This document shows positions 49,791 to 64,000 of a stretch of 64,000 bases of DNA, piece by piece. Position numbers and translations under genes: made by a program. Where the stretch lies: positions 70,160,033 through 70,224,032 of the forward strand of contig OX485804.1 in NCBI GenBank assembly GCA_950295325.1, read 5' to 3'. The first letter of the stretch is position 1. Every line of letters begins with the position of its first letter. Origin of the DNA: Polytrichum commune (taxonomy: Eukaryota; Streptophyta; Polytrichopsida; Polytrichales; Polytrichaceae). Below the pieces are notes generated by a model that worked only from the letters and a program-made list of their open reading frames with translations, was not told the DNA's origin and did no database searches.

Positions 49791-50625
49791 ACATGCGAGG
49801 CCCACGCCGTAGATGGCCGACATGGAATTCACAATGGAGGCCATGGGGAGAGCACAGTCTGTGCTCCCTCCCTGTTCCACACGCAAGCTATGGCCGGCCA
49901 CAACAATGGGGGCCGAACCCTAACCCACCCCCCCACCTGAGGGTTGTAAGAGTTGGGCGCTAAAGTCTGTTTGGTAGGTTATGGCCGCTGCTATCGCAAG
50001 TCACAGCCGCGAACCGGAGGCATTTTGGGTTCGGCGCCAAGCAGAAGGCAGGCGGAACAACAAAAATCGACCCACAAACAACAAAGAAAGTGCTCCCACA
50101 CCCACACACCCATGCCGCTACCTAGACACCGAAATGCGCAGGGAAGGGGTGAGGAGACCAGAATAAGCATGCATTACCCACCCGAAATGCAGTTCCCGAA
50201 GCTCAGCGTCAATTGCAATCGCCGTTGCTCCCTCCATGTCGTTGTGCGCGGATCTAGGAGCATAGGATGTTTCAGGGCCTCGGAGCGTGGGAGCACTACT
50301 AGGAATGGGGGTCCTTTCCCACACCAGAAGGAAATGGTTTTGCCAATTGATATCAAGCACGACACATATCCTAGTTGGTCCAACCACTATGGATGTGGTG
50401 TATTCTTGGACTAGTCCTAATTTTTAAAACGTATTGTGTCAAGACGATGTCCCAGGATAGTGCCCCTGGTAGGTGTCAAACTTGTGTCCCACTTTATTAT
50501 ATGATGCAACGGAATTAAAAGTTAATTTAGTCCATGCTATATATATATTAATCTCCAGCATTTATTAAAAAATGCAGTGATGGTGGGGGGCGCTACATCG
50601 CCGGCTACAGGTGTTTCGGTGTGTG

Positions 50626-51782
50626 GGGCCCAACTGTGTTTCTACACTCGGGGCCCGAAGTGCTACAACTGGGGCCCGAGTTGAGACACTTCAGGGTCCC
50701 AATTTCTACACTTGGGGCCCGAAGTGCTATAACTGGGGCCCCAGCTGAGACATTTCGAGGCCCCAGGTGTAGCAATTGGGGCCCCAATTCCTACACTCCG
50801 GGCCCGAAGTGCAACAACTGGGCCCGAGTAAAGACACTTCGGGGTCCCAATTTCTACACTCGGGGTCCCAAGTGCTACAACTGAGGCCCGAGTTGAGACA
50901 CTTCGGGGCCCCAATTTCTACACTCGGGGCCCAAAGTGCTACAACAACGGCCCGAGTTGAGACACTTCGCGGCCCCAGGTGTAGCACTTGGGACCCCAAT
51001 TCCTACACTCGGGGCCCGAACTGCTACAACTAGGGGCCCAATTCCTACACTCGGGGCCCGAACTGCTATGACTGAGGCCCCAGTTGAGACATTTTGGGGC
51101 CCCAGGTGTAGCAATTGGGGCCCCAATTACTACACTCCGGGCCTGAAGTGCAACAACTGGGCCCGAGTAAAGACACTTCGGGGTCCCAATTTCTACACTC
51201 GGGGCCCCAAGTGCTACAACTGAGGCCCAAGTTGAGACACTTCGGGGCCCCAATTTCTACACTCGCGGCCCAAAGTGCTACAACAAGGGCCCGAGTTGAG
51301 AGACTTCGCGGCCCCAGGTGTAGCACTTGGGGCCCCAATTCCTACACTCGGGGCCCGAACTGCTATAACTGAGGCCCCAGTTGAGACATTTCGGGGCCCC
51401 AGGTGTAGCAATTGGGGCCCCAATTACTACACTCCGGGCCCGAAGTGCAACAACTGGGCCCGAGTTGAGACACTTCGGGGTCCCAATTTCTACACTCGGG
51501 GCCCGAAGTGCTACAATTGGGGCCTGAGTTGAGACACTTCGCGGCCCCAGGTGTAGCATTTGGGGCCCCAATTCCTACACTCGGGGCATGAAGTGCTACA
51601 ACTAGGGCCCCAATTTCTACAGTCGGGGCCCGAAGTGCTACAATTAGGCCCCAATTCCTACACTCGGGGCCCGAAATGCTATAACTGGGGCCCCAATTGA
51701 GACATTTCAGGGCCCCAGTTGTAGCACTTGGGGCCCCAATTCCTACACTCGGGGCCTGAAGTCCTATTACTTGGGGCCCAAA
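50626..51782. repeat. GGGCCC-centred short-period minisatellite with higher-order structure
   Basis: About 1.15 kb of 21-22-bp modules, each with a GGGGCCC or GGGCCCC core in one of a few contexts: TACACTCGGGGCCCGAAGTG, CAACTGGGGCCCGAGTTGAG, ACACTTCGGGGCCCCAATTTC and CAGGTGTAGCAATTGGGGCC. Because module contexts are partly reverse complements of each other (CACTTCGGGGCC and GGCCCGAAGTG), the array is dyad-rich. Longer blocks repeat at about 340 and 297 bp (the phrase ending GGTGTAGCAATTGGGGCCCC at about 50,790, 51,123 and 51,421). Both strands stay open in several frames, giving repetitive 'LGP'-type ORFs that I regard as by-products. Confidence 0.93.
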
Positions 51783-52189
51783 GTAACACTATATTCGTTA
51801 ATCGGAGACTTTTGAAAGTCTCAAAATAAAATATGCCCATAGTTTGGGATGCCAATATTGTGGGCATATGGAATGTTGGGAACATCAAGAACATGACAAT
51901 TTAAAAATTCGCACGTAAAGAATATTCCTAATACTAAAAATAGAAAATTGCAATTATAATGAAAACGTGAACTCCATGTGGAAAATAACAAGCGAATATA
52001 AAAAACAAATGGTTTATGTCATTATAGAGTTTGGGGTGCGCATCCCATAAGTAAGGTTCTTATGGTTTTGGATGGCACATCCCAAACGTATACCACAATG
52101 GAGTGTGACAAGTCTACTAAGTCTATTAAAAACCAAGACTACTAAGTACTAATGTTTTTTCCCGCCGTTAACTTTCACCTATGTTATGT
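51783..52189. other. AT-rich spacer downstream of the DUF7869-type gene
   Basis: No ORF of note; it should include the 3' UTR of the minus-strand gene that ends at 52190. Confidence 0.4.
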
Positions 52190-55100
52190 TTACCCATCTC
52201 CATCTTCCGCTTCATATCCATTCTCGGCGTCATTTTCCGCAGCTGCAATACGTGCCAAGTTGTCTTTGGCAAAATGTATATGTTTTTGGGGGATGGTCAT
52301 TGCTTCTGTGTTGGAACCTTTGCGCGGCTTCCAAGCACAAAGTATAGTATCCGTGTTTATCCAAACCGGTGTGTACGCTGAGTCCACTGTCCACTTAAAA
52401 TTCTTTTTGGTGTCCCAACCTAAATAAGTGCGGAGCACGTTGTGGTCTTTAGTGCTTGGACGACAATATTCCACCTCAATTTGACGAAAGTTGGGGCTAG
52501 TTCGAACAAAATTGGGTGAAGACAATGCTTTTACCAACCAAATTGGCTTGGGATGCTCCTCATCCCCAGCTCGTACGAGGACCAAATACCCTTCATGGCA
52601 ATCAACACCTACACGAAACGACGGTGCCGGTCGATTGCGGGCAGGGCCAACGTAATGCTCGTCCATTGCGAACTCTTCACGAACGTCTCCATTGCTGAAA
52701 AACATAGTATCGGACTCGACAACCGTCAAACGACTTTGTGGCCAAAATCCTTGTGTCAAAGTCGTACGGGTGTCGCCACCAAGTGTCATCAAGGCTGAGC
52801 GAATGCGATCCCAATACGCGATCAACGGTTCATGGGTATTTCTAACACGTCTTGTGATGTCCTCCTCGCACAACTCTTTCCAATATTCAATGAATCCGGA
52901 TATGCCTTTGATGATTTCCGGCCCATTCCTCATGGGTTCGGGTTTGCAAGGCTTTGGTTCCCCATCCGGGACCAAACATTTCTCATCATTGTCTTGACGC
53001 CATACGAGTATACCATCATCCGGGCCCCAATTAGGAGATGTGCACAAAAGCTTGAATTGCATGGCCGGGAGACCATCGTCCCTCATATAAAATCGGAATT
53101 GTTGTGCTTTGGTATGCCCCACCAAACGGTCCCCTCCCTTCAACATGTATGGCTTGATGAAGGCCTTGAAATTTGGTACTTCCTCAATCAAGTGCGGAAT
53201 TACTGGCATATGGTCCAAATCCATATACGATTTCATAAGAAGAGGTATGGTTGGAAAATCTTCTTCATGCAACTTCATGCTCCACCGTCCGAATGATGCA
53301 TCAATGTCGTCGTGTGTATGTCCCACCATCAAGAAAGACACAAACACCTCCTTGAAGATTCCTTTCGCCACGAGCAATGACCAAAAACAAAATACGTATC
53401 GACATTTGTTGTCCTTCGCACAATTATCAAGTTGAACGTGGAGAGTTGGAGGCAATGGTTTTGCACAAATGGGCTCTCCGGGTGGTTCTGGCAATGACGA
53501 CATACAAACCTCCTTCCCCAAAAGCACTGCCTCATAAAGGGATGTGGTTCCACAACCATCAAAAAGTGCACGGGAAGAATGTACCGGTGGCTTCTCAAGA
53601 TCGCGCAACAGTTTTGCAAATGAACCCACCGTGTGGTTAGCATCCCCAGGGTAAAAATCCAAACCATAATGGGCATACTTTACGTCCCCATGGCCGTGGG
53701 CAATCATACCTGGAAAAAACAAACGATGCGTGACCAAAATAATCAAATAACCACTAAACGGATGTATGGAGTTGGACATTTGCCAAACACACCCAAGAAA
53801 ATTGGATAGACTTTAAACACGTAGTTGTGATTTCATACAAACCTGTGACAGCTACGGGCAACTTGAAGAGACCATCCGTGGCCTTTATTTTGCGTGCATA
53901 ACAAGGGCATGCGGTCTTGGCGTGGTCCATTTTATCATGGATGACTGTTAGAACCTCTGTGGGCCTCATTATGGATAGAGCACGATTCTTATAGTAATCT
54001 TGACGGTGTGCCTCTTGATTGTTGACATGTTCAATATATTTTTTCTGGTGTCTGGAATGAGATTCAGTGCCTATGGGGTGGGCGTCTCGAAGACCTTTGT
54101 ATTTTTCACACGTCGTACATCTAGCGAACTTGTCCCCGGGTCTTTTCAGAATGTATTCCGCAAACTGCTGGTTTTTAATCACACTCAACTTGGACAAAGA
54201 AATGGGCCCACATCCCGCTATGCGACCCACTTCATTGATGTCCGTTAAGATGTTCTTCCATTTTGTGCCCGTGGGCAACACCATTTGAACAACCTTCTCC
54301 CCTGACGACAATGTCCTCGTCTTGTGGGGCATTGCATCGGCCAATGGCACTATGATGGTGGATAGTGTCGCGGACGCTTGCAGTGTAGCCTCCCTAGGTT
54401 TCTTTGTGCCCGAGTTGCCATGAAATCGAGAGCGGCGACCCAACGATGAATATTTTCGAAACCTATAAAAGTCAGCCTTGGAGACGGCGTGGATGGTATA
54501 CCACGCTGTACAACACACATCAACATTCTCAAGTGTCACCACCTTATGCCCATGGGTATCAAGGTGCAAATTTCTGTGGACCTCGAGTTTCTTAGCCGAC
54601 CTCATACGAAAATCCGCAAGCCACATCTCTTGACGCAGAGATCTAATTTTCTCCCGCGGGAAAAATTGGCAACATTTCCTCGTGCAACAATCCTTGCCGG
54701 ACACTAGACGGATAGATTCGTCCCCCAAAAGCCGATCCCGTCGACGCTCCTTATCTCCGCGAAGCACACGGTTTGAATCATATCTACGGAGGCCTTTGCG
54801 AGGACGTGTTGTGGCCAACAAAGCTAATTGTGTTTGCTTATGCCGCCGCTCATGATCCCACAAACTCACTTCCTCATGTAGAACTCGACGAAGCGGCCAT
54901 CGACGCAAGGAAAATCTCCATGTCACCGGGAACTCTACCGGAAGCAAAGAGTTCAAGATGCACACGCCAACATCATCGAGACCTAGGGCGTTGGCATCGA
55001 CACAATCACGGGGATTGGAGTTTCTACATATACCATCTGCCACCGGGACACCAACCTCGTTGAGTAGAACGACATCAAGGCCAACCCATTGCTCCCTCCC

Positions 55101-55319
55101 GAAACCGGCACACAACGGAATGTCATCGTGGTCATCTCCGGAATGCAGAGATTGTTCGTGGACTTCCAAAGATTCATGGGAGGATGTATCCACAAACACC
55201 CCCCTCACGTTTGGTGAACCATTACTATCTGCCGACGGGGAAGACAGTTCACATTCAGCATCGGATGACGATGCATACGTCGACAACTCCAATGAACTAT
55301 CACTCACATGCAACGCCAT
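52190..55319 (-). CDS. Large DUF7869-type protein, transposase-like, two exons
   Basis: Two exons, 55319-53843 and 53709-52190, joined across a 133-bp GT-AG intron in phase 1, give 998 aa from the ATG at 55319 (MALHVSDSSLELSTYASSSD); the frame stays open 59 codons further upstream. After an acidic N-terminus come a cysteine cluster (GKDCCTRKCCQFFPREKI), the CTTCEKYKGLRD motif, and, mostly in exon 2, the family hallmark: VQLDNCAKDNKCRYVFCFWS (D at about 587), then FLMVGHTHDDIDASFGR (about 620-636). This QLDN...GHTHxDID pairing is what I know as DUF7869, found in plants, animals and protists; the spaced acidic residues look like an RNase-H-fold (transposase-like) active site, which is inference. 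The C-terminus (YLVLVRAGDEEHPKPIWLVK) resembles the small beta domain that often ends these proteins. Function unknown. The whole frame is intact, unlike nearby transposons, so it is young or under selection. Its upstream side carries ten copies of the palindrome family. Confidence 0.82.
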
Positions 55320-55641
55320 ACAGCCTAGACCAACCACCAGGACATGATCAACCCAACCACCACCGCAATGCATACAAGAGAGGATAGAATATATGTGGAG
55401 ATAAATGGCCCAAAATTGACAAACAAATTTTGGTGCACCATTGGAGAACCTCACGCACAAAGACGAACGCGCGTCCCAAAAAAACGTTTTAAGCATACGT
55501 CTAGGTTGTTCACTAATGTAAACAATACATGGACAAAGAGGAGAACACTCGTTAGTCGTCCAGGAGGGCCCTGCTGTTCGGACCAGCGCCTGTCCACATA
55601 CAACCGACGACGAAATCAGAAATCCGAGAACGCCACATGCA

Positions 55642-56716
55642 TTTACGAACGCGCATTCGTGACCTCAGTAACTTCTCCATGTACATCCGGCGGCCTTCGA
55701 GATCCCTCAAATGAGAGCACCCTGAGGAATATCGGTTTTGTAGGTCAAAGTACCATGTTGACTTAGGAACCTGCGCGATATACTATCACAAGAGAACACT
55801 TGTCCATACGCACAAAATTAGCAAATCTGCAGATGATGCCTGAATCAACTCCAACAATATTTTGAACACTGAGCACCTCCATATTGTGAATTTGATTATG
55901 TTGACTTTTGCGTACCTACCCATTTACGAACGGACGTTCGTAAATGGGTGCGACCCCGTGTTCACATCCTTCACGGACGAGCGATGAGCATATTTTTCTT
56001 GCTATTCTGTGTTCGTAAATTACTGCCATACTGATGTGCATGAATGAAGATGTGTTGCTGGATGCGTAGACAATAATGACATGTATTTACGAACGAACGT
56101 TCGTAAATTCCCGACCATCAGGTAACAATAGATACGGGTCAAATAAGTATGTATGATCCTCGAAGGCATATTTACGAACGCACGTTCGTAAATGACTGTC
56201 ATGGATTAAGTGCATGTGACTAACCATATGAGTACCTCAATCCAGAACATGCTCTCATGTGGGATTTACGAACGCACGTTCGTAAATTACCGACCAACAG
56301 GTACCAATAGACAAGGGTCAAATATATATGTATGAAACTCGAAGGCATATTTACGAACGCACGTTCGTAAATAAATGCCATGGATGATGTGCATGTGACT
56401 ATCCATGAGTAGCTCAATCCAAAACATGATCTCCTGTGGGATTTACGAACGCACGTTCGTAAATTACCGACCATCAGGTACCAATAGATAAGGGTCAAAT
56501 ATGTCTGCATGGTCCTCGAAGGCATATTTACGAACGCACGTTCGTAAATAACTGAGATGGATTACGTGCATGTGACTATCCATATGAGTAGCCCAATCCA
56601 GAACATGCTCTCATGTGGAATTTACGAACGCGCGTTCGTAAATCCTTGCCATGTCCAGGTCCGAATCGTTTGTCTAAACCTGAAGCTCTTCATCTTTACG
56701 AACGTGCGTTCGTAAA
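55642..56716. repeat. Palindrome cluster 1: ten copies, in part a ~178-bp tandem satellite
   Basis: Each copy has arms TTTACGAACG and its reverse complement around two free bases. Positions and centres: 55642-55663 (CG, right arm decayed), 55923-55944 (GA), 56087-56108 (AA), 56171-56192 (CA), 56265-56286 (CA), 56350-56371 (CA), 56442-56463 (CA), 56527-56548 (CA), 56621-56642 (CG), 56695-56716 (TG). A lone right half lies at 56011-56020. From 56087 on, spacing alternates about 85 and 93 bp, so a unit of about 178 bp holding two palindromes is tandemly repeated roughly three times; text between them (CATGGAT...GTGCATGTGACTA; CCGACCATCAGGTACCAATAG) is also repeated. A weaker relative (GACGAACGCGCGTCCC) lies at 55462-55477. 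Confidence 0.95.
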
Positions 56717-56989
56717 GTTCCGGTATTTACGGCGGTATATGCGGTAGGTACAGCCTGTACTGTACCTGGGTGGTGTAGGGTTGGCGCACACGAAATGGCT
56801 TGAGCGCGTTCGGTGAGGTCTGTAGAGCGCACACTTGCATGTGCCGCTGAAAAGAGCTTTGTTGTGGGGGGAAGAGCTTTAAGTACTTCACCCCGCTGGT
56901 TCAAAATCCCTTGGATGCTTTTTAAAAAGCAGATTCCCGCCGCCTTCTTTGACCTAACAATCTCCCATTCCATCCATGCGGAATTATAT

Positions 56990-57105
56990 AAATAGCATTG
57001 TCATGTATGGAACATGCCTTGCATGCACGCCAACATATTGAAAATATATAAATCGGTTGCACACCTTAGTTGTGACCAAGGTCTCATCGAAATATATGTA
57101 TATAC

Positions 57106-57142
<37 letters not shown>

Positions 57143-57257
57143 ATGTCTAAATATGAAGATGGTTAACATTGAATATTTAATGATTTGCGACTAAGGTATG
57201 AAGTCCAAGTTAATTGACAATTGATGCCTAATAAAGTTATGAATGTCGAAGTCATAG

Positions 57258-57298
<41 letters not shown>

Positions 57299-58930
57299 CA
57301 ATGAGGTCAGAGTGGCTAAGAAACATGTTGCGGACGCCCCTAAAATTATAGGTATCATATGTTTCACATCAAAAAATGACCGTAATATGGTCACCAAGTG
57401 CATGAATACAACTAAAAAATCGGGTTAATCCATAATGGCTTGCACTAGGGTAGATTGAGGACACTATGAACTAATTATACCTAATAATATATGTAAGTTA
57501 GGTCTTCTTTCAAATGGTATCTAGGTGTGAAAATAAGGAATTAAAATGGCATGAGTAGGAAGGATTAATCAATTTGTAATGCTGCATAGTATGATAGCGT
57601 AATGATCATTGAGACTTGAAACCATACTAGCTACCGTAACGTTGAATCATAGTTACAATTATTATGTGTTTGACGTCCTATTGGAAATTGAATTTTCGTC
57701 CACTTGTTGTAAGGGTACGGATACACATTGGTTAAATGTTTATTAGATCATTGGTGATATTTATAGTTGAATGCATTGTTCGATTGTTAGTTTAAGTTGA
57801 CACATGATTAAATGAGTTGAGGTCCTATTGGAAATAGACTTTTAGGGTTTGGGGAAATGCACTATTAATTTGGAATGGTGCATACAATAGTATGTACTTA
57901 CAATTAATATATGTTTTGCATCCTATGAGAAGGATGTGCATCATCATAGCTTAAAGTGTTGATATAAATTGAAGTCTTAAGACATGCATGTTATTATAAT
58001 AAGATCGTGGATTGTGTGATGAAATTTCACTCAGAACTATTAAGGTGAAAGTGGGAATATTTGAAATTTCACTTATCACTTAAACCAAAGTTTTATCTCA
58101 AATCTATTAATTTGGAATGTGAAATTGACAATTGCCATCATTATCAATTATTATAGTTGTTATGAACGGAATTAAGCATTCTCCATCCAACCAACATTGG
58201 TAGACCAATTTGACCTGCCCTCAGAAAACAACATGGCCACATATAAGAAAGGTTGGTAAGATAAAAAGATGCAAGGATGTAGGGTTTAGGGTTTGCGGTT
58301 AGGGTTTAGGGTAAGGGTTTGGGGGTAGGGTTTAGGGGTTTAGGGTTTGTGAAAGTTGTGTATGTGGTATTTGGGTTTAGGTTTTAGATTGTTACTAGGA
58401 TACATTACACACACAAACAATATTGACTCCTCAAAAACCCTTGTAATTGCATTAACTTCATTCATCGCAAGCTCGTAGTTGATGCTAGCAAAATAGTTGA
58501 CCACTCCAGAAATGCATTAGTTCAAGCTAACACCTAATATTAGAACTTGAATTGACATCCTATCGTATAGCAACTCTGCGCAATCTCATATTATTATGAA
58601 TTCTTTTTTGCATGTAATATTTATTTGAGGAACCATCGAATTAATTGAAAGATATCTAGCTCTTACATAAACTATATTTTAAAACACCATATATATATCT
58701 TTGGGGGTGGATTCTACATTGACAACCTAGGGAGTGACATGCATTGTTTATTACGAATTAACTGAGCATATTTTCCTAAAATATGTTTACAAGGAATCCA
58801 AATGTAGAGGTACTAAGGAAATAAAACGAGTAAAATTCATGTATTTGAACTAAGCTTGTCAAGTTAATGCCTTAAACGCGTCCATTACATAAAAATATGT
58901 CAAAGCATGAGAATAACATGAAGGGTTCCA
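56990..58930. other. AT-rich spacer between the two large genes, no supported gene
   Basis: Contains TA-dinucleotide runs at about 57,105-57,134 and 57,259-57,279, the latter followed by a CA run to 57,300. No ORF above 75 codons looks coding. The telomere-like tract inside it is listed separately. Confidence 0.5.
58279..58349 (+). repeat. Interstitial telomere-like repeat (TTTAGGG type)
   Basis: About 70 bp made of TTTAGGG units and near variants (GGTTAGGG, GTAAGGG, GGGGTAGGG). Plant telomere units read 5'-TTTAGGG-3' toward the chromosome end; here they are degenerate and internal. Confidence 0.88.
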
Positions 58931-58941
58931 ATATACAACCA

Positions 58942-59010
58942 TCTCCCATCTCCCATCGCATCCCATCCCATCCCATCCCTTCCCATCACCTCCCATACCA
59001 TCCCATCCCA
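58942..59010. repeat. CCCAT pentanucleotide microsatellite
   Basis: Imperfect (CCCAT)n with interruptions (CCCTT, CACCT, CCATA). It lies about 30 bp before the G-box and upstream of the presumed transcription start of the plus-strand gene. Confidence 0.9.
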
Positions 59011-59041
59011 TCTCTCTCCCAACCCTAGCCAGTGGAGTTGT

Positions 59042-59051
59042 GCCACGTGGC
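59042..59051. promoter_or_regulatory. Palindromic G-box (GCCACGTGGC)
   Basis: A perfect 10-bp dyad around CACGTG, the classic plant G-box bound by bZIP and bHLH factors. It lies about 1.6 kb upstream of the first coding ATG of the plus-strand gene and about 100 bp before a purine-rich leader-like stretch (from about 59,120), a sensible promoter position. Function is inferred from motif and place only. Confidence 0.5.
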
Positions 59052-59209
59052 AGGTGCTGGGAAACCCTAGCGGTGCACCTACCTCCCCGCGCCCCTTCCT
59101 CTTCTCCTCATTTGTCATTTCGAGGAGAGGAGGAGCGGAGCGTTTAGAGAGCGAAGCTCTTGCTTTTTTTAGTCTTGAAGTTTTAAATTAGTTTTGTTGC
59201 AAGTTTTGA

Positions 59210-59530
59210 GAGATTTCAGATTGAGAGCTTGTGTGAAAGCTTTTGAGTTTGTGAAAGCTTGTGAGTTTGTGAAAGCTTTCAGTGTGAGAGTTTGTGAGTT
59301 TCAAAAGCTTGAGAGCTTGAGTAGGAAAGCTTCAGAGTTTCGGATTGAGAGCTTGAGGGTGATCTTTAGAAGCTTGAGAGTTTAAGGAAGCTTCAGAGTT
59401 GAAGCTTGAGAGTTTAAGGAAGCTTCAGAAGTGAAGCTTGAGAGTTTAGGGAAGCTTCAGAAGTGAAGCTTGAGAGTTTAGGGAAGCTTGAGAGTTTAGG
59501 GTTTGCTTAAGAGTTCAGAAGCTTGAGAGC
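59210..59530 (+). repeat. AAGCTTGAGAGTT-type tandem repeat, ~32-33-bp unit in its regular part
   Basis: From about 59,368 to 59,500 the unit GAAGCTTGAGAGTTTAGGGAAGCTTCAGAAGT recurs about four times as two alternating halves (AAGCTTGAGAG and AAGCTTCAGA). Looser AGCTT/GAGAGTTTG variants extend upstream to 59,210. HindIII sites recur at each half-unit. It probably lies in the 5' leader of the plus-strand gene. Confidence 0.8.
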
Positions 59531-59899
59531 TACAAGGTTGTGAGTTTTGTGTACATAGGAGTATACTAGGGTTTGTATATAAGCTGTGAAGGCTTGAGGT
59601 CTGCATTAGAGAGTTATCTGAGTGTGCATTTGAAAGGCAATTGAGTGTGCAGTTGTGAGGATTTCTGGGATTTTCAGAAAGAGAAGAAGCAGGGATTGCA
59701 GTGTGCAGCATTTCAATGTAATTTGTTATCCTTTCCAACTCCTCTCACATTCTGAAAATGTTGCTTCTTGAATTCAATTTCTTTTGTTACATGCAATGTG
59801 AACTATCACTCTTTTCTTCATGTTTCATTCTGCATCTCATTCTGCATCTCAATTGCTTTATGATTGAAGAATTGCATCATTCTGACCAAAATTTTGCAG

Positions 59900-59928
59900 G
59901 CACGGCTGCAAGCAGAGTAACTAATAAG
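59900..59928 (+). other. Possible short non-coding exon before the plus-strand gene
   Basis: A 29-base segment between a strong acceptor (aaattttgcag) and a strong donor (ataa|gtgagt). If used, the following intron would be 59929-60674 and would contain all nine cluster-2 palindromes. Only splice-site look supports this. Confidence 0.35.
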
Positions 59929-59956
59929 TGAGTTATATACATATACGTATATATAC

Positions 59957-59978
59957 GTATTCGTATATACACGAATAC
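59957..59978. repeat. Short hairpin GTATTCGT / ACGAATAC
   Basis: 8-bp arms with a 6-bp ATATAC loop, embedded in an ATATACGTATAT tract just before palindrome cluster 2. The TTCGT/ACGAA core is shared with the palindrome family, so it may be a distant relative or a chance dyad in the AT/CG-alternating tract. Confidence 0.5.
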
Positions 59979-60014
59979 ATATATGTACGGACAGGGGATC
60001 CCAAAACCATCACA

Positions 60015-60646
60015 TATACGAACGCTCGTTCGTAAATGGACATACACTGCATACCCACCTCCATTTACGAACGCTCGTTCGTAAATGGACATACACTGCA
60101 TACCGAACCTCCATTTACGAACGTGCGTTCGTAAATACGCACTCCACGTTCTTTGAGATGATCTATATTTACGAACGCACGTTCGTAAATATACTCAAAA
60201 TATCACTCAGAAAGAACCCTAACTTAAATATGAACCTCTATGAATATCTAAAGAACAAATACAATTTTGCGAACACCAATAAGACAAATCACATGTACTT
60301 ACGAAAGATAAATCAACCAAATATCCGAAAAGATAGACCAAATGGACATACTTACGAACGCACGTTCGTAAATGAATCCAAACCTATAAAACCTATATCT
60401 TTTACGAACGATCGTTCGTAAAAATAACCAAATATATTACAAACACATTCATGACGAGTAGTCTCTTTGATCTTCATATCTTTTACGAACGCTCGTTCGT
60501 AAACTCAATACTAAAAATTTATATGATCTTGCAACCCCTCATTTACGAGCGAACGTTCGTAAATATAATTACATCAATTGCAAAGACGCATTAACACTGC
60601 GTAGTCTGTGGGATATGCATGTCACTTACGAACGTTCGTTCGTAAA
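60015..60646. repeat. Palindrome cluster 2: nine copies before the first coding exon
   Basis: Positions and centres: 60015-60036 (CT), 60064-60085 (CT), 60114-60135 (TG), 60168-60189 (CA), 60351-60372 (CA), 60401-60422 (AT), 60482-60503 (CT), 60542-60563 (AA, left arm has one change), 60625-60646 (TT). Three copies have an outermost or second base changed (TATACG, CTTACG). Unlike cluster 1 the spacing is irregular and the sequence between copies is not repeated, except between the first three. The last copy lies 28 bases before the acceptor of the first coding exon. Confidence 0.95.
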
Positions 60647-60674
60647 GTCACTAATTGTTTATATTCTGTTGCAG

Positions 60675-63600
60675 ATGGCAAGATCAAGCAGAAGCGCCAT
60701 TGAGATGTTCGCGGTGAAGGTCGATGGCCTCCCAGAGTCGGTGTTAGACGATAACGGCAACGACAACTATGTCCCCAAGGAAGACTTCATGGGGGAGTGG
60801 ATGGCACTGCCAGAGAAGATCGGGGACGGCCTCTTCTGCATGCGCTTCACCTACGAGCTGGAGACAAGACCGGACCAGCCCGAACAGTGGGTTCAAATGA
60901 AGACGTGGGAGATAGAGTCCATAGAGGCCCAGCGGGAGTATGTAATTTTGGACATGAAGAACAAGAAGGATCGTATCAACCTCTTGTTACATTTTCAGAA
61001 AAATACCTTCTCCTACCAATACGCCACCAATAACGTAGCGGAAGATGCCAAGCACTTCGACCTGGACGGCCTCTTCTCCAAATATGCGTTGAGCCCATAC
61101 TGGACTGCAAGGAAATTGAACGCCCTGGCATTGAACATCTCCAAATACAACAGTGTGGTCACTGAGGCAAACAAGAAGAAGAAGAGCCCCAGGAAACCAT
61201 CCACATCAGGGGCAGGAGGATCTAGAAGTGCACCCAGGCCTGTGCCTTCCGCTAGCAGGGCGACGGAGGGCCCCAGTAGACACTCCACGCCATCGAAGAG
61301 GACAAGGGAGGAGATGGAGAAATCGGGAGTAACGGAGACCGCAGAGGTGACCTCGCTTGTCGTAATGCCCACCCCCTTGAAAAAGGGTGAGAACCCTGAC
61401 GCTGTGAAGGCCACGAGGATCCTTCGAGACTTCAACAACTACTCGAAGGATTGCTGGCCCATGGGACGCCACTTCACATTCAACGTGGACTGCTTCAAGT
61501 GCGAGATGTCCCCCAACAAATGGGTGGTTCGCTCTCGCGAAAGCGGTGGTGTGAAGTGGCAGATAAATAATCTAATGAACAACGTCAAGTGGGACATGCA
61601 GACCGTCTGCGTCATGCCGAAGGGGCTGACATCCCGTCCGACGGAGAAGGACTGGCCACGGATCCAGAATGGAGAGTTCTGGATCATAGACGGCCAACAC
61701 AGCTTGGAGGCGTCCCAAATAATTCTCAAGGACGACAACTTCCAGCATGAGCTGAAGGAGGACTTGCGCTACTGGAAGGCGTTCTTGGTGTGGTCGGACG
61801 ATTGGGACAAGCTGCGGAAGATATCCACCTTCCTCAACTCCGGCAACAAAATCAAGGCCTTCGAGGCGTCGTGGGCAGCCAACATAGTGGCTGCAAGGGA
61901 CGTCTGGGTCGCCCACGGGTGCCCCCCTAAAGAAAGGGAGAACGCGAAGACGCCGTCTCCACAATGGAAGGTGAGTTTACGAACGAACGTTCGTAAATAT
62001 CTTTGACATTCAAATTTTCAAGTTCTTTGACATTCAAACTTACGAACGTGCGTTCGTATTTTGTGCGTTACTGATGTTTTTCTTGCTACAGGCATTCTGC
62101 GACGCGATGGTGGACAAGTTCTCCTCCATCGACATGAAGTCTACAACAACCAAGTCTGTCCTGGAGCTCAAGGGTGAGCTCCGCCTCATCTGTTGCAACA
62201 GGGACACTTGGGAGTTGTGGACACAATTTTTTGATGCGCACAGCTCGGGCGATCTGGTCAACCCCGACACCGAGGAGAAGTACAGCGCGGAGAAGACCGG
62301 GGAGGCCCCTCCACTACTGAGGGAGTTCTTCAGGTCCCTTCAAGGGTTAACAGAGTCCGAGTTGCAGAGGTGCGCGGTGCATCTTCTTGGGAACACTGTG
62401 GGAAGAACCATCCCATACCCGAAGATATTTTTGAAGAGGCCAAGACACAAGCCCGGCACGTATTCCATCAAGGAATGGTGCGAACACCGCAAGCTGAAGA
62501 CTGCTGCAATGAGGGAGTTGAGCGCCCTAATACCAGAGTACGCACTCATCCTAGCCGACGGGGACATTAATTGGGCCAGCTGGAAGATGTTCAAGGTCGA
62601 CTACAACATCTCCGGACCCTCAATGCGTTGTCTTGTCAAGGAGCACGCCTCCATTTTGAAGCAGAAGGGGAACAAGAGGACAAAGAAAACCGAGACGGAT
62701 CCCCAAGAGGTGGAGCAATACAGAAGCTTTTTGACGCGGAAGAGGTTGGCCACATTCGAAGGAGTGGCCAGATTTTGTCTGTTGACAAAAGGAGTGGAGA
62801 GGGTGACATTTTCCAAGTGGGACCGGACCATGAGCAGGGCCGAGGTGAGGGAGGATCGACGGGGGTGCCCATTTGCCCTGATCGATTTCAGGGGGATCCC
62901 CGGTGCGTCGAGGCAGGGGGGGAAGGACATACCTTTCTACGACCCCTTCATGGCCAAGTTCAAGGAGCACAAGTCTCCGGACATGAGGGAGCCTCACGTT
63001 TGGCTGTGGATAGTCGAGCAGGAGAAGCTCTCTGCTGTAGTCGACCTGTACGAGAAGTCGATCAAATTTGAGTACAGCATCTTCCACAGCACTTACGTGC
63101 CCGCCAAGACGGAAGGGATCGTGGCCATCAACGAGGCCAGGGGGAACAAACAGGTGGGGGCGGTCAGCCTCGTCTTCTTGACGTACAACGCGCTGCGGAA
63201 TGGGCGAGCCCCTGTCAAGGCGAACACTACGTTCAAGAAGATCTACAGCATCCCCCATCCCCCTCCCAAGGATCTGCTGCAGGAGACCTTGTACACTGTC
63301 TTCCCGGCGATGGAACTCAGGTTGGAGTTCTACGTCTCCGTTTTGCAGAGCGTGGCAATAAGCGGAGAGACCGTGTACAACGTTTGTGGCGGCAGCAAGT
63401 TCATGTACGCTGCGATGGTAAGCTCTCCAACTAATATTTACGAACGCTCGTTCGTAAAGTTCACCTCAACTTGTCTTGGGTTTGATGACATTGTTTCTCG
63501 TCGTTGATGTTTACGAACGCACGTTCGTATTTTCTAACGTATTTGCTTGAATCTCAGATGCTGGGGCTGGTCGTCAACAGCTTCATTGAAGCCATCGACG

Positions 63601-64000
63601 AGGAGGACTTCCACGTGCACAGGGCGAAGGCCTCCACGATGGACCTGGAGGACATGTCCCTCCCGAGGACGGACATCAACATGCCCGTCGACGAAGGCAT
63701 GCCCGCCATGGAGACGGACGACGACGAGCCCGCGCCCTCCTACAACGTCGAGGCGATCCTCCGATCCTTGGACGTCACTCCTCTCCGCATTTTGGCGCCG
63801 TCGGGAAATCCATCCGACGTGCAAGGGACTCCGGGTGGATACACGGGGTCGTCGGCGGGGACAACCCAAGATGTCCTCCCCGCGAGAACGTCTGGAGCGG
63901 AGGCATTCGGCACTCCCGGGGGATGCTCGACATCCGTGTCGCCCAGGCCGATCGTGGTTCCCAAGATGGAGAACCTCGACCTTCTGGACCAACGGTCCCG
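60675..64000 (+). CDS. Large unassigned protein with DGQH motif, three exons, runs off the window
   Basis: Exons 60675-61970, 62092-63417 and 63558 to beyond 64000, all phase 0 and GT-AG, give 1,021 codons so far. The first exon starts with ATG straight after an acceptor (tgttgcag|ATG), so there is an upstream non-coding exon. Exon 1 has an N-terminal domain (WMALPEKIGDGLFCMRFTYE), a basic Ser/Pro/Lys-rich linker (about 175-235), then KWVVRSRESGGVKWQINNL and GEFWIIDGQHSLEASQIIL (D339-G-Q-H342), followed by YWKAFLVWSDDWDKLRKIST and FLNSGNKIKAFEAS. The IIDGQHxLEA pattern is like the DGQHR/ParB-type core of prokaryotic DNA-modification and selfish-element proteins, where it reads DGQHR; here it is DGQHS. 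Exon 2 has no domain I know (PHVWLWIVEQEKLSAVVDLY, then VSLVFLTYNALRNGRAP). Exon 3 turns acidic and disordered. Exons are GC-rich and intact, introns AT-rich and palindrome-filled. No function can be assigned. Confidence 0.8.
61971..62091 (+). other. Intron with two palindromes (121 bp)
   Basis: Between AAG|gtgag and ctacag|GCA. Palindromes occupy 61976-61997 (centre AA), starting five bases after the donor, and 62039-62060 (centre TG), whose right arm ends in ATT instead of AAA. They leave a 41-nt spacer and a 31-nt acceptor region (gttactgatgtttttcttgctacag) with a likely branch point CTGAT. The two palindromes are mutually complementary, so their pairing would bring donor and acceptor regions together. 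Confidence 0.92.
63418..63557 (+). other. Intron with two palindromes (140 bp)
   Basis: Between ATG|gtaagc and tctcag|ATG. Palindromes occupy 63437-63458 (centre CT) and 63510-63531 (centre CA). As in the other small intron, the downstream copy has a right arm ending in ATT, running into TTTTC before the acceptor. The layout (donor, palindrome, 40-50-nt spacer, variant palindrome, acceptor) is the same although the spacer sequences differ. Confidence 0.92.

Follow-up and report, generated by a model that had tools for sequence, protein, structure and literature searches.

A stretch of 64,000 nucleotides from the genome of the moss Polytrichum commune (contig OX485804.1, positions 70,160,033 to 70,224,032; hereafter the window) contains most of a DNA transposon that carries many copies of a 22-base-pair (bp) palindrome, TTTACGAACG-NN-CGTTCGTAAA, in which fixed 10-bp arms flank a freely varying 2-bp centre. 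These palindromes are probably the sites by which the transposon recognizes itself (we put the probability at roughly 0.6), with the product of the element's accessory gene, gene 2, their most likely reader. The arms are held constant while the DNA around them drifts, and the type of palindrome goes with the lineage of gene 2 in both lineages examined. A constrained family of sites that is borne by an element and changes together with an accessory gene would be transposon self-recognition in a new form, and the comparative support for it is strong.

The palindromes form a compact family. Scanning the whole window at ≤3 mismatches finds 23 copies, all within 55642-63531, which agrees with the count in a preliminary description of this DNA; 100 shuffles of the window give 0 matches. 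Sixteen copies are exact, four have one mismatch, one has two and two have three, in line with the earlier statement that nearly all arms are intact or one base off. The centre is CA in eight copies, CT in four, AA and TG in three each, CG in two, and GA, AT and TT in one each; thus, 8 of the 16 possible dinucleotides are used, and they are the eight named at the outset. The analysis also took in the adjoining genome, 83.8 kb in all, with coordinates above 64000 referred to as extended. Just beyond the window end there are 7 further palindromes (≤4 mismatches), bringing the total in the transposon to 30. Outside the transposon, the 83.8 kb contain 0 palindromes at ≤6 mismatches, a threshold that finds 32 inside; at ≤7 mismatches there are 38 inside and 3 outside. 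Ten sites lie upstream of gene 1, the transposase gene (cluster 1, 55642..56716, six of them in three tandem units defined by repeat alignment), nine in the leader intron of gene 2 (cluster 2, 60015-60646, plus strand), two in intron 1, two in intron 2, five in intron 3 and two in the frame of exon 3. The element scan finds none in the gene-1 exons, the 133-bp gene-1 intron, or gene-2 exons 1 and 2. The placement thus goes beyond introns and spacer: with the two in-frame copies beyond the window (64535 and 64911, extended), the site has entered coding sequence. The spacings between neighboring copies were also compared with periods of 10–11 bp; 11 was strongest (vector length 0.65, 19 spacings), a value that comes partly from tandem copies, has no null and from which nothing is concluded. 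A separate perfect dyad, GGCGCTGTCC-CG-GGACAGCGCC, has three copies in the window (20025, 32785 and 36204), which sit inside a longer repeat found in both orientations; it looks like another repeat family.

What indicates that the arms are constrained? Cluster 1 consists in part of tandem repeats with a 179-bp unit. When three of these units are aligned, none of the 40 arm columns varies, whereas 27 of the 135 columns in the flanks do (Fisher p=0.0008); among the centre columns, 1 of 4 varies. Hence, the array shows fixed arms between drifting flanks. In pairwise comparison, 243 of 253 flank pairs have <50% identity. The flanking DNA, described earlier as unrelated for cluster 2 and the introns, is therefore unrelated for most copies but not for all, given the tandem part of cluster 1 and the 78% identity between 55894-55980 and a stretch of gene-2 intron 3. 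Constant arms in mostly unrelated flanks, in introns, in an upstream region and in coding sequence, with the same geometry kept in another lineage, suggest a reader that acts in trans. Fixed arms separated by two free base pairs would suit a dimer that places a subunit on each arm. Indeed, a site for a symmetric dimer, one of the possibilities raised in the preliminary description, appears to be the best-supported interpretation: within the tandem units the arms are better conserved than the centre or flanks, they recur in relatives and across the genome, and their geometry persists in a distant lineage.

The second lineage was reached through proteins. There are 12 relatives of gene 2 in metagenome and genome protein sets, and in several of them the open frames run on through the introns. 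Palindrome peptide signatures are present in 13 of 17 such read-through segments, which come from 10 close relatives (P0003-P0012, 69–82% identity), with 21 signatures in total. The signatures are [YC]ER[STPA]FV, [LI]RTxVR and TN[VADEG]RS; they were set after the peptides had been seen, with I accepted in place of L, and C in place of Y. By comparison, 2,000 shuffles give 2 signatures at most, and there are 0 outside the segments in 121 proteins (87,321 residues, segments included). Two of the four signature-free segments are only 2 and 13 residues long, and the other two miss a signature by one residue (YERPSV, LRTCVC). The residue encoded at the centre codon varies among segments. A more distant relative, P0002 (34% identity to gene 2 of the window), has other peptides at the same two introns: VWVGRPK twice, SLGRSTQT, and VWVDRPK twice. 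Two reading frames of these peptides agree on one dyad, GTTTGGGTCG-NN-CGACCCAAAC, which keeps the 10-2-10 geometry and has 5 of 10 arm positions in common with the window palindrome. This dyad, predicted from peptides, has 9,231 exact copies in the host genome, whereas a reversed-pattern control has 0. One locus, L041 (C1:2115400-2121400), was picked by the new palindrome alone and fetched. It encodes gene 2 on the minus strand, with 75–77% identity to P0002 and 33–37% to gene 2 of the window. Five palindromes precede its exon 1 (one with 1 mismatch and one with 3), three lie between exons 1 and 2, three follow exon 2 directly (one of them with 1 mismatch), and another three lie farther downstream; a scan at ≤6 mismatches finds no window-type palindrome in the locus. 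The L041 copy of gene 2 may be broken, since a single frame change interrupts the match in exon 2. Sites resembling GTTTGGGTCG-NN-CGACCCAAAC (≤6 mismatches) also occur in the window at 673, 4927, 52029 and 52066. The last two are inside the transposon, near its left end, and may be chance or degenerate relic sites.

With 20 of the 30 sites in gene 2, and with a site that differs when gene 2 differs, the gene-2 product is the likely reader. The same two observations bear on a rival explanation, that the DUF7869 transposase itself binds the palindromes, to assemble the transposition complex or to control transcription. Cluster 1 sits just upstream of the transposase gene, and in plants CACTA transposases or their helpers bind repeated subterminal motifs. 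However, at ≤4 mismatches the outermost 3.8 kb on the left of the moss element and 2.4 kb on its right are free of sites, and both the concentration of sites in gene 2 and their change with its lineage point away from gene 1. This explanation is therefore unlikely.

How widespread are the palindromes? The family is not a local one: the 408-Mb genome has 2,909 exact window-type sites, compared with 0 for a reversed-pattern control. The genomic places known individually are the 86 sites among those listed, all on contig C1; 84 of these fall in five clusters and two are singles, so uniform scatter is not what is seen. For example, a cluster at C1:2270108 opens with the spacings of the window tandem array (85, 94, 85, 92). 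Another cluster has a scored gene-2 exon (C1:2466223-2467545) with sites on either side (2466107 and 2467568), as in the window, and yet another has a scored gene-2 exon (C1:2533395-2534717) less than 100 bp away from the first site of the cluster (2534812). Thus, the suggested link with the two flanking genes is partly supported for gene 2; gene 1 has been found in the same element. There are at least 95 matches to gene-2 exon 2 in the genome. Of these, 27, including the window's own, have an identity that rounds to 100%, and 79 of the 95 scored have no internal stop, so the transposon family looks recently active. An even sample of contig C2 (20 x 10 kb) has no palindrome, the closest having 7 mismatches, and no transposon copy. 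A dense array at C1:640864-646099, with at least 26 exact window-type sites, many at regular 33/34-bp and 93-bp spacings, and with CC/GG centres, is a different expansion of the window-type site.

Such numbers could also arise if the palindromes were tiny mobile or amplifying repeats, like miniature inverted-repeat transposable elements (MITEs) or spread by gene conversion, with no function for the element. Consistent with this are the high copy number, the part that is plain tandem duplication, and the many evenly spaced sites of the C1:640864-646099 array. Against it stand the invariant arms of tandem units whose flanks have diverged, and the different sequence at the same intron positions in the second lineage. 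In the window, the palindromes lie in the interior of an element with other termini, so an ordinary MITE terminus is not what is seen there; duplications around single copies were viewed by eye in six-base flanks. Overall, an origin as functionless repeats is improbable. Searches for known counterparts of the palindromes were negative. Viral contigs gave 0 matches to the palindrome, and genome contigs gave just two single bacterial matches, taken as chance. Rfam has 0 families at gathering score over 50000-64000 of the window, and ARAGORN finds no tRNA in the window. The literature searched, mostly outside subscription journals, yielded no report of these palindromes, and a search with TTTACGAACG gave no title on transposon palindromes among those listed.

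Two other explanations concern the symmetry of the site. First, the palindromes may act in RNA, with copies inside one intron pairing with each other or forming hairpins, looping the intron out and affecting splicing. The hairpin idea of the preliminary description is weakened, although two copies in one short intron can pair in RNA. Introns 1 and 2, with two copies each, fold so that their copies pair (z −2.6 and −3.2), and in L041 each of the two intron positions contains 3 copies. However, pairing requires identity within one intron alone, yet the arms are common to different introns, cluster 1, two coding-exon copies and relatives. Among the window copies, moreover, no changed pair is restored to Watson-Crick pairing by a second change; the change at 60542 leaves a G-T pair (G-U in RNA), and one restored pair, seen by eye, lies beyond the window at 65322. 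A role in RNA is likewise unlikely. Second, the palindromes may be serine-recombinase crossover sites with a 2-bp centre, a comparison that had been offered earlier on the basis of the geometry. The geometry is all that favors it: no such enzyme was found among the few element proteins and relatives scanned, and the centres differ between neighboring copies. Differing crossover centres would block recombination between many pairs of sites. This explanation is scarcely credible.

Several observations weigh against self-recognition through gene 2. The test of arm constraint covers one tandem array alone, and in cluster 2, 4 of the 9 copies have one arm change (60015, 60351, 60542 and 60625). The second lineage consists of one fetched locus, L041, with its perhaps broken gene, and the protein P0002. 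With the palindrome lineages compared by gene 2 alone, the true partner could be the transposase. At 3 of the 5 listed clusters there is no scored gene-2 exon, an absence that is uninformative because the scores cover only 95 of 1,158 candidates. Cluster 2, the copies of introns 1-3 and perhaps cluster 1 are transcribed under the present gene model, so a role in RNA would suit them too, and the paired folds of introns 1 and 2 count on the same side. Finally, the structure model of the gene-2 protein is poor (mean predicted local distance difference test score, pLDDT, 49.7) and unfit for claims about fold, and its family matches are below cut-off.

The element itself has the features of a cut-and-paste (DDE) transposon. 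It extends over 16,099 bp, from 51784 to extended 67882, so that 51784..64000 are in the window and 3,882 bp lie beyond its end; the ends were placed from this single copy. The left terminal inverted repeat (51784..51813, plus strand), with the end sequence TAACACTATATTCG, is the reverse complement of the right end, with agreement at 27 of the 30 outermost bases, and a 2-bp target-site duplication, AG, is present on both flanks. The insertion target is a GGGGCCC-rich tandem array at 50639..51783 that resumes at extended 67883-68886, with quasi-palindromic units of about 21, 64 and 85 bp. When the flanks are joined with one AG, the resulting 18-base empty site, GGGCCCAAAGTGCTACAA, occurs twice in the surrounding array; a longer join of 26 bases has no exact occurrence there. 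Together, the inverted repeats, the AG duplication and the presence of GGGCCCAAAGTGCTACAA in the array indicate that the transposon inserted into a pre-existing array. The GGGGCCC arrays were also considered as inverted transposon ends, and this was rejected: they match best in direct orientation, and the ends fall at their inner borders. A 200-kb sample of the same contig has no such array elsewhere. At the far side of the window, a 614-amino-acid open frame (21-1865) reads, by eye, as the C-terminal part of a SNF2-type chromatin remodeller.

Gene 1 is on the minus strand and encodes an RNase H-like transposase with a presumed acidic triad. Its exon 1 (53843..55319), joined by frame and alignment, includes an HDKMD motif with the first D of that triad, and its exon 2 (52190..53709) has the DUF7869 domain of a DDE-type transposase (PF25273, E=3.8e-40). 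The acidic residues are conserved in alignment with relatives, and the structure of a gene-1 relative resembles DDE transposases and integrases. Foldseek gives no match for the gene-1 model at E≤0.001, and a literature search found no paper on DUF7869.

Gene 2 is on the plus strand. Its leader intron (59929..60674; GTGAGT donor, TTGCAG acceptor, boundaries by eye) houses cluster 2. Exon 1 (60675..61970) has a DGQH motif and is ParB/GmrSD-like by subthreshold profile matches. It is followed by intron 1 (61971..62091, palindromes at 61976 and 62039), through which relatives read, and by exon 2 (62092..63417), which was placed by alignment to relatives and to which the scored genomic matches correspond. 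Next come intron 2 (63418..63557, palindromes at 63437 and 63510, placed by pattern scan and relatives) and exon 3 (63558..64000 and on into the extended sequence), and then intron 3. The exon after intron 3 codes for a NIF/FCP1-like phosphatase domain (PF03031, E=2.7e-16; L019:1810-2574, in the adjoining stretch) and probably belongs to gene 2, judging by frame and by splice signals read by eye. A NIF-like phosphatase is either unusual transposon cargo or the final domain of gene 2.

The family to which the gene-2 protein belongs is suggested only by weak matches. On the DGQH region, ParB-type matches are weak or below cut-off (DUF6551 0.03, DUF1015 0.043, GmrSD_N 0.097-0.1, PHROG ParB 0.096), and unrelated families match gene 2 at a like level (N-SET 0.15, PfUIS3 0.11, the nameless phrog_21482 0.0077). 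In hhalign, the ParB signature has P=0.022 compared with 0.49 for a reversed control, and profile comparisons are at noise level. The methyltransferase motif positions, read by eye, are degenerate, with DFRG in place of DPPY and NVCGGSK in place of DPFxGSG, and hhalign of gene 2 against phage methyltransferases and ParB-methyltransferases stays at noise level, one reversed control included. Thus, gene 2 has no significant ParB or methyltransferase domain match, and a ParB-like or methyltransferase-like nature is only suggestive. Foldseek has no match for the gene-2 model at E≤0.001, PDB sequence searches give nothing credible, PADLOC and NCBIfam have no match, and viral contigs contain no relatives of gene 2.

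How might self-recognition work? The gene-2 protein, probably a dimer, would dock one subunit on each 10-bp arm of the 22-bp dyad and would leave the two central bases unread. Arrays upstream of the transposase gene and in the leader and other introns of gene 2 would gather the protein on the element's own regulatory DNA. There, it would most likely prevent gene silencing, by likeness to VANC on VANDAL elements, or it might autoregulate the genes. Binding could be methylation-sensitive, because each palindrome adds 4 CpG dinucleotides, or 5 if the centre is CG; in four stretches measured, the palindromes raise the local CpG observed/expected ratio from 0.5-1.0 to 1.3-2.4. A bolder and rather doubtful idea is that plant transposons captured a ParB-like family that now exists in many lineages, each with its own parS-like 10-2-10 dyad, and that the protein loads on intronic arrays, spreads and excludes silencing. 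If so, the thousands of palindromes in one genome would be mutually exclusive self-recognition codes. Two palindrome lineages in one genome in any case make it possible to study, as a natural experiment, how the specificity of a DNA-binding protein changes along with its many dispersed sites, and their coexistence offers a direct way into why transposons evolve self-recognition codes.

There are partial parallels in known systems. First, in bacterial partition, ParB reads palindromic parS sites as a dimer. The moss element likewise has a palindromic site and a possibly dimeric reader with a putative ParB-like domain; unlike parS, its sites number tens per element and many are intronic. Second, CACTA (En/Spm) elements have many copies of a short, subterminal, non-palindromic motif that is read by TnpA and tied to methylation control. 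Many copies of one short motif and an element protein as reader, here putative, are common to both, whereas the moss sites are internal and palindromic. Third, Sola1-1_Ec32 of Ectocarpus and similar algal elements have an accessory protein combining ParB and DNA methyltransferase (PMC12477816). Like the moss element, Sola1-1_Ec32 is a large DNA transposon whose accessory gene runs on the opposite strand, and the product of that gene is proposed to bind its own transposon; the accessible text of its description mentions no palindromic sites (PMC12477816). Gene 2 is similar in its DGQH motif and the subthreshold ParB-like matches upon it, and it differs in lacking a significant ParB or methyltransferase match, in its degenerate motifs and in the NIF-like exon that follows.

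To our knowledge, sequence-specific self-recognition by transposons is best documented in Arabidopsis VANDAL elements. The moss element is not a member of this group of Mutator-like elements (MULEs): gene 1 has DUF7869, its sites are 22-bp dyads with a free 2-bp centre, and by Pfam, DUF1985 is absent from the parts of gene 2 scanned (exons 1 and 2, the start of exon 3 and the NIF exon) and from relatives. VANDAL elements, as described in the available portions of the reports, have the VANA transposase, VANB, and VANC with DUF1985, and their 9-bp motif, YAGTATTAY, is non-palindromic and in one orientation (PMC5735166, PMC10398659). The likeness is in the arrangement. According to the same portions, VANDAL elements also encode a second protein and carry arrays of a short motif, partly tandem duplicated, in accessory-gene introns and ahead of the transposase gene; the motif changes between related elements along with the protein (PMC5735166, PMC10398659). 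For example, VANC21 motifs occupy introns of both VANC21 and VANB21 as well as the region upstream of VANA21 and differ from VANC6 motifs, and VANC expression leads to methylation loss (PMC5735166). The moss element has this VANC-type trait, non-coding motif arrays that change with the accessory protein, its second lineage being L041 and P0002. Hence, an unrelated transposon in another plant appears to have reached the VANDAL arrangement with a different protein family and a symmetric site.

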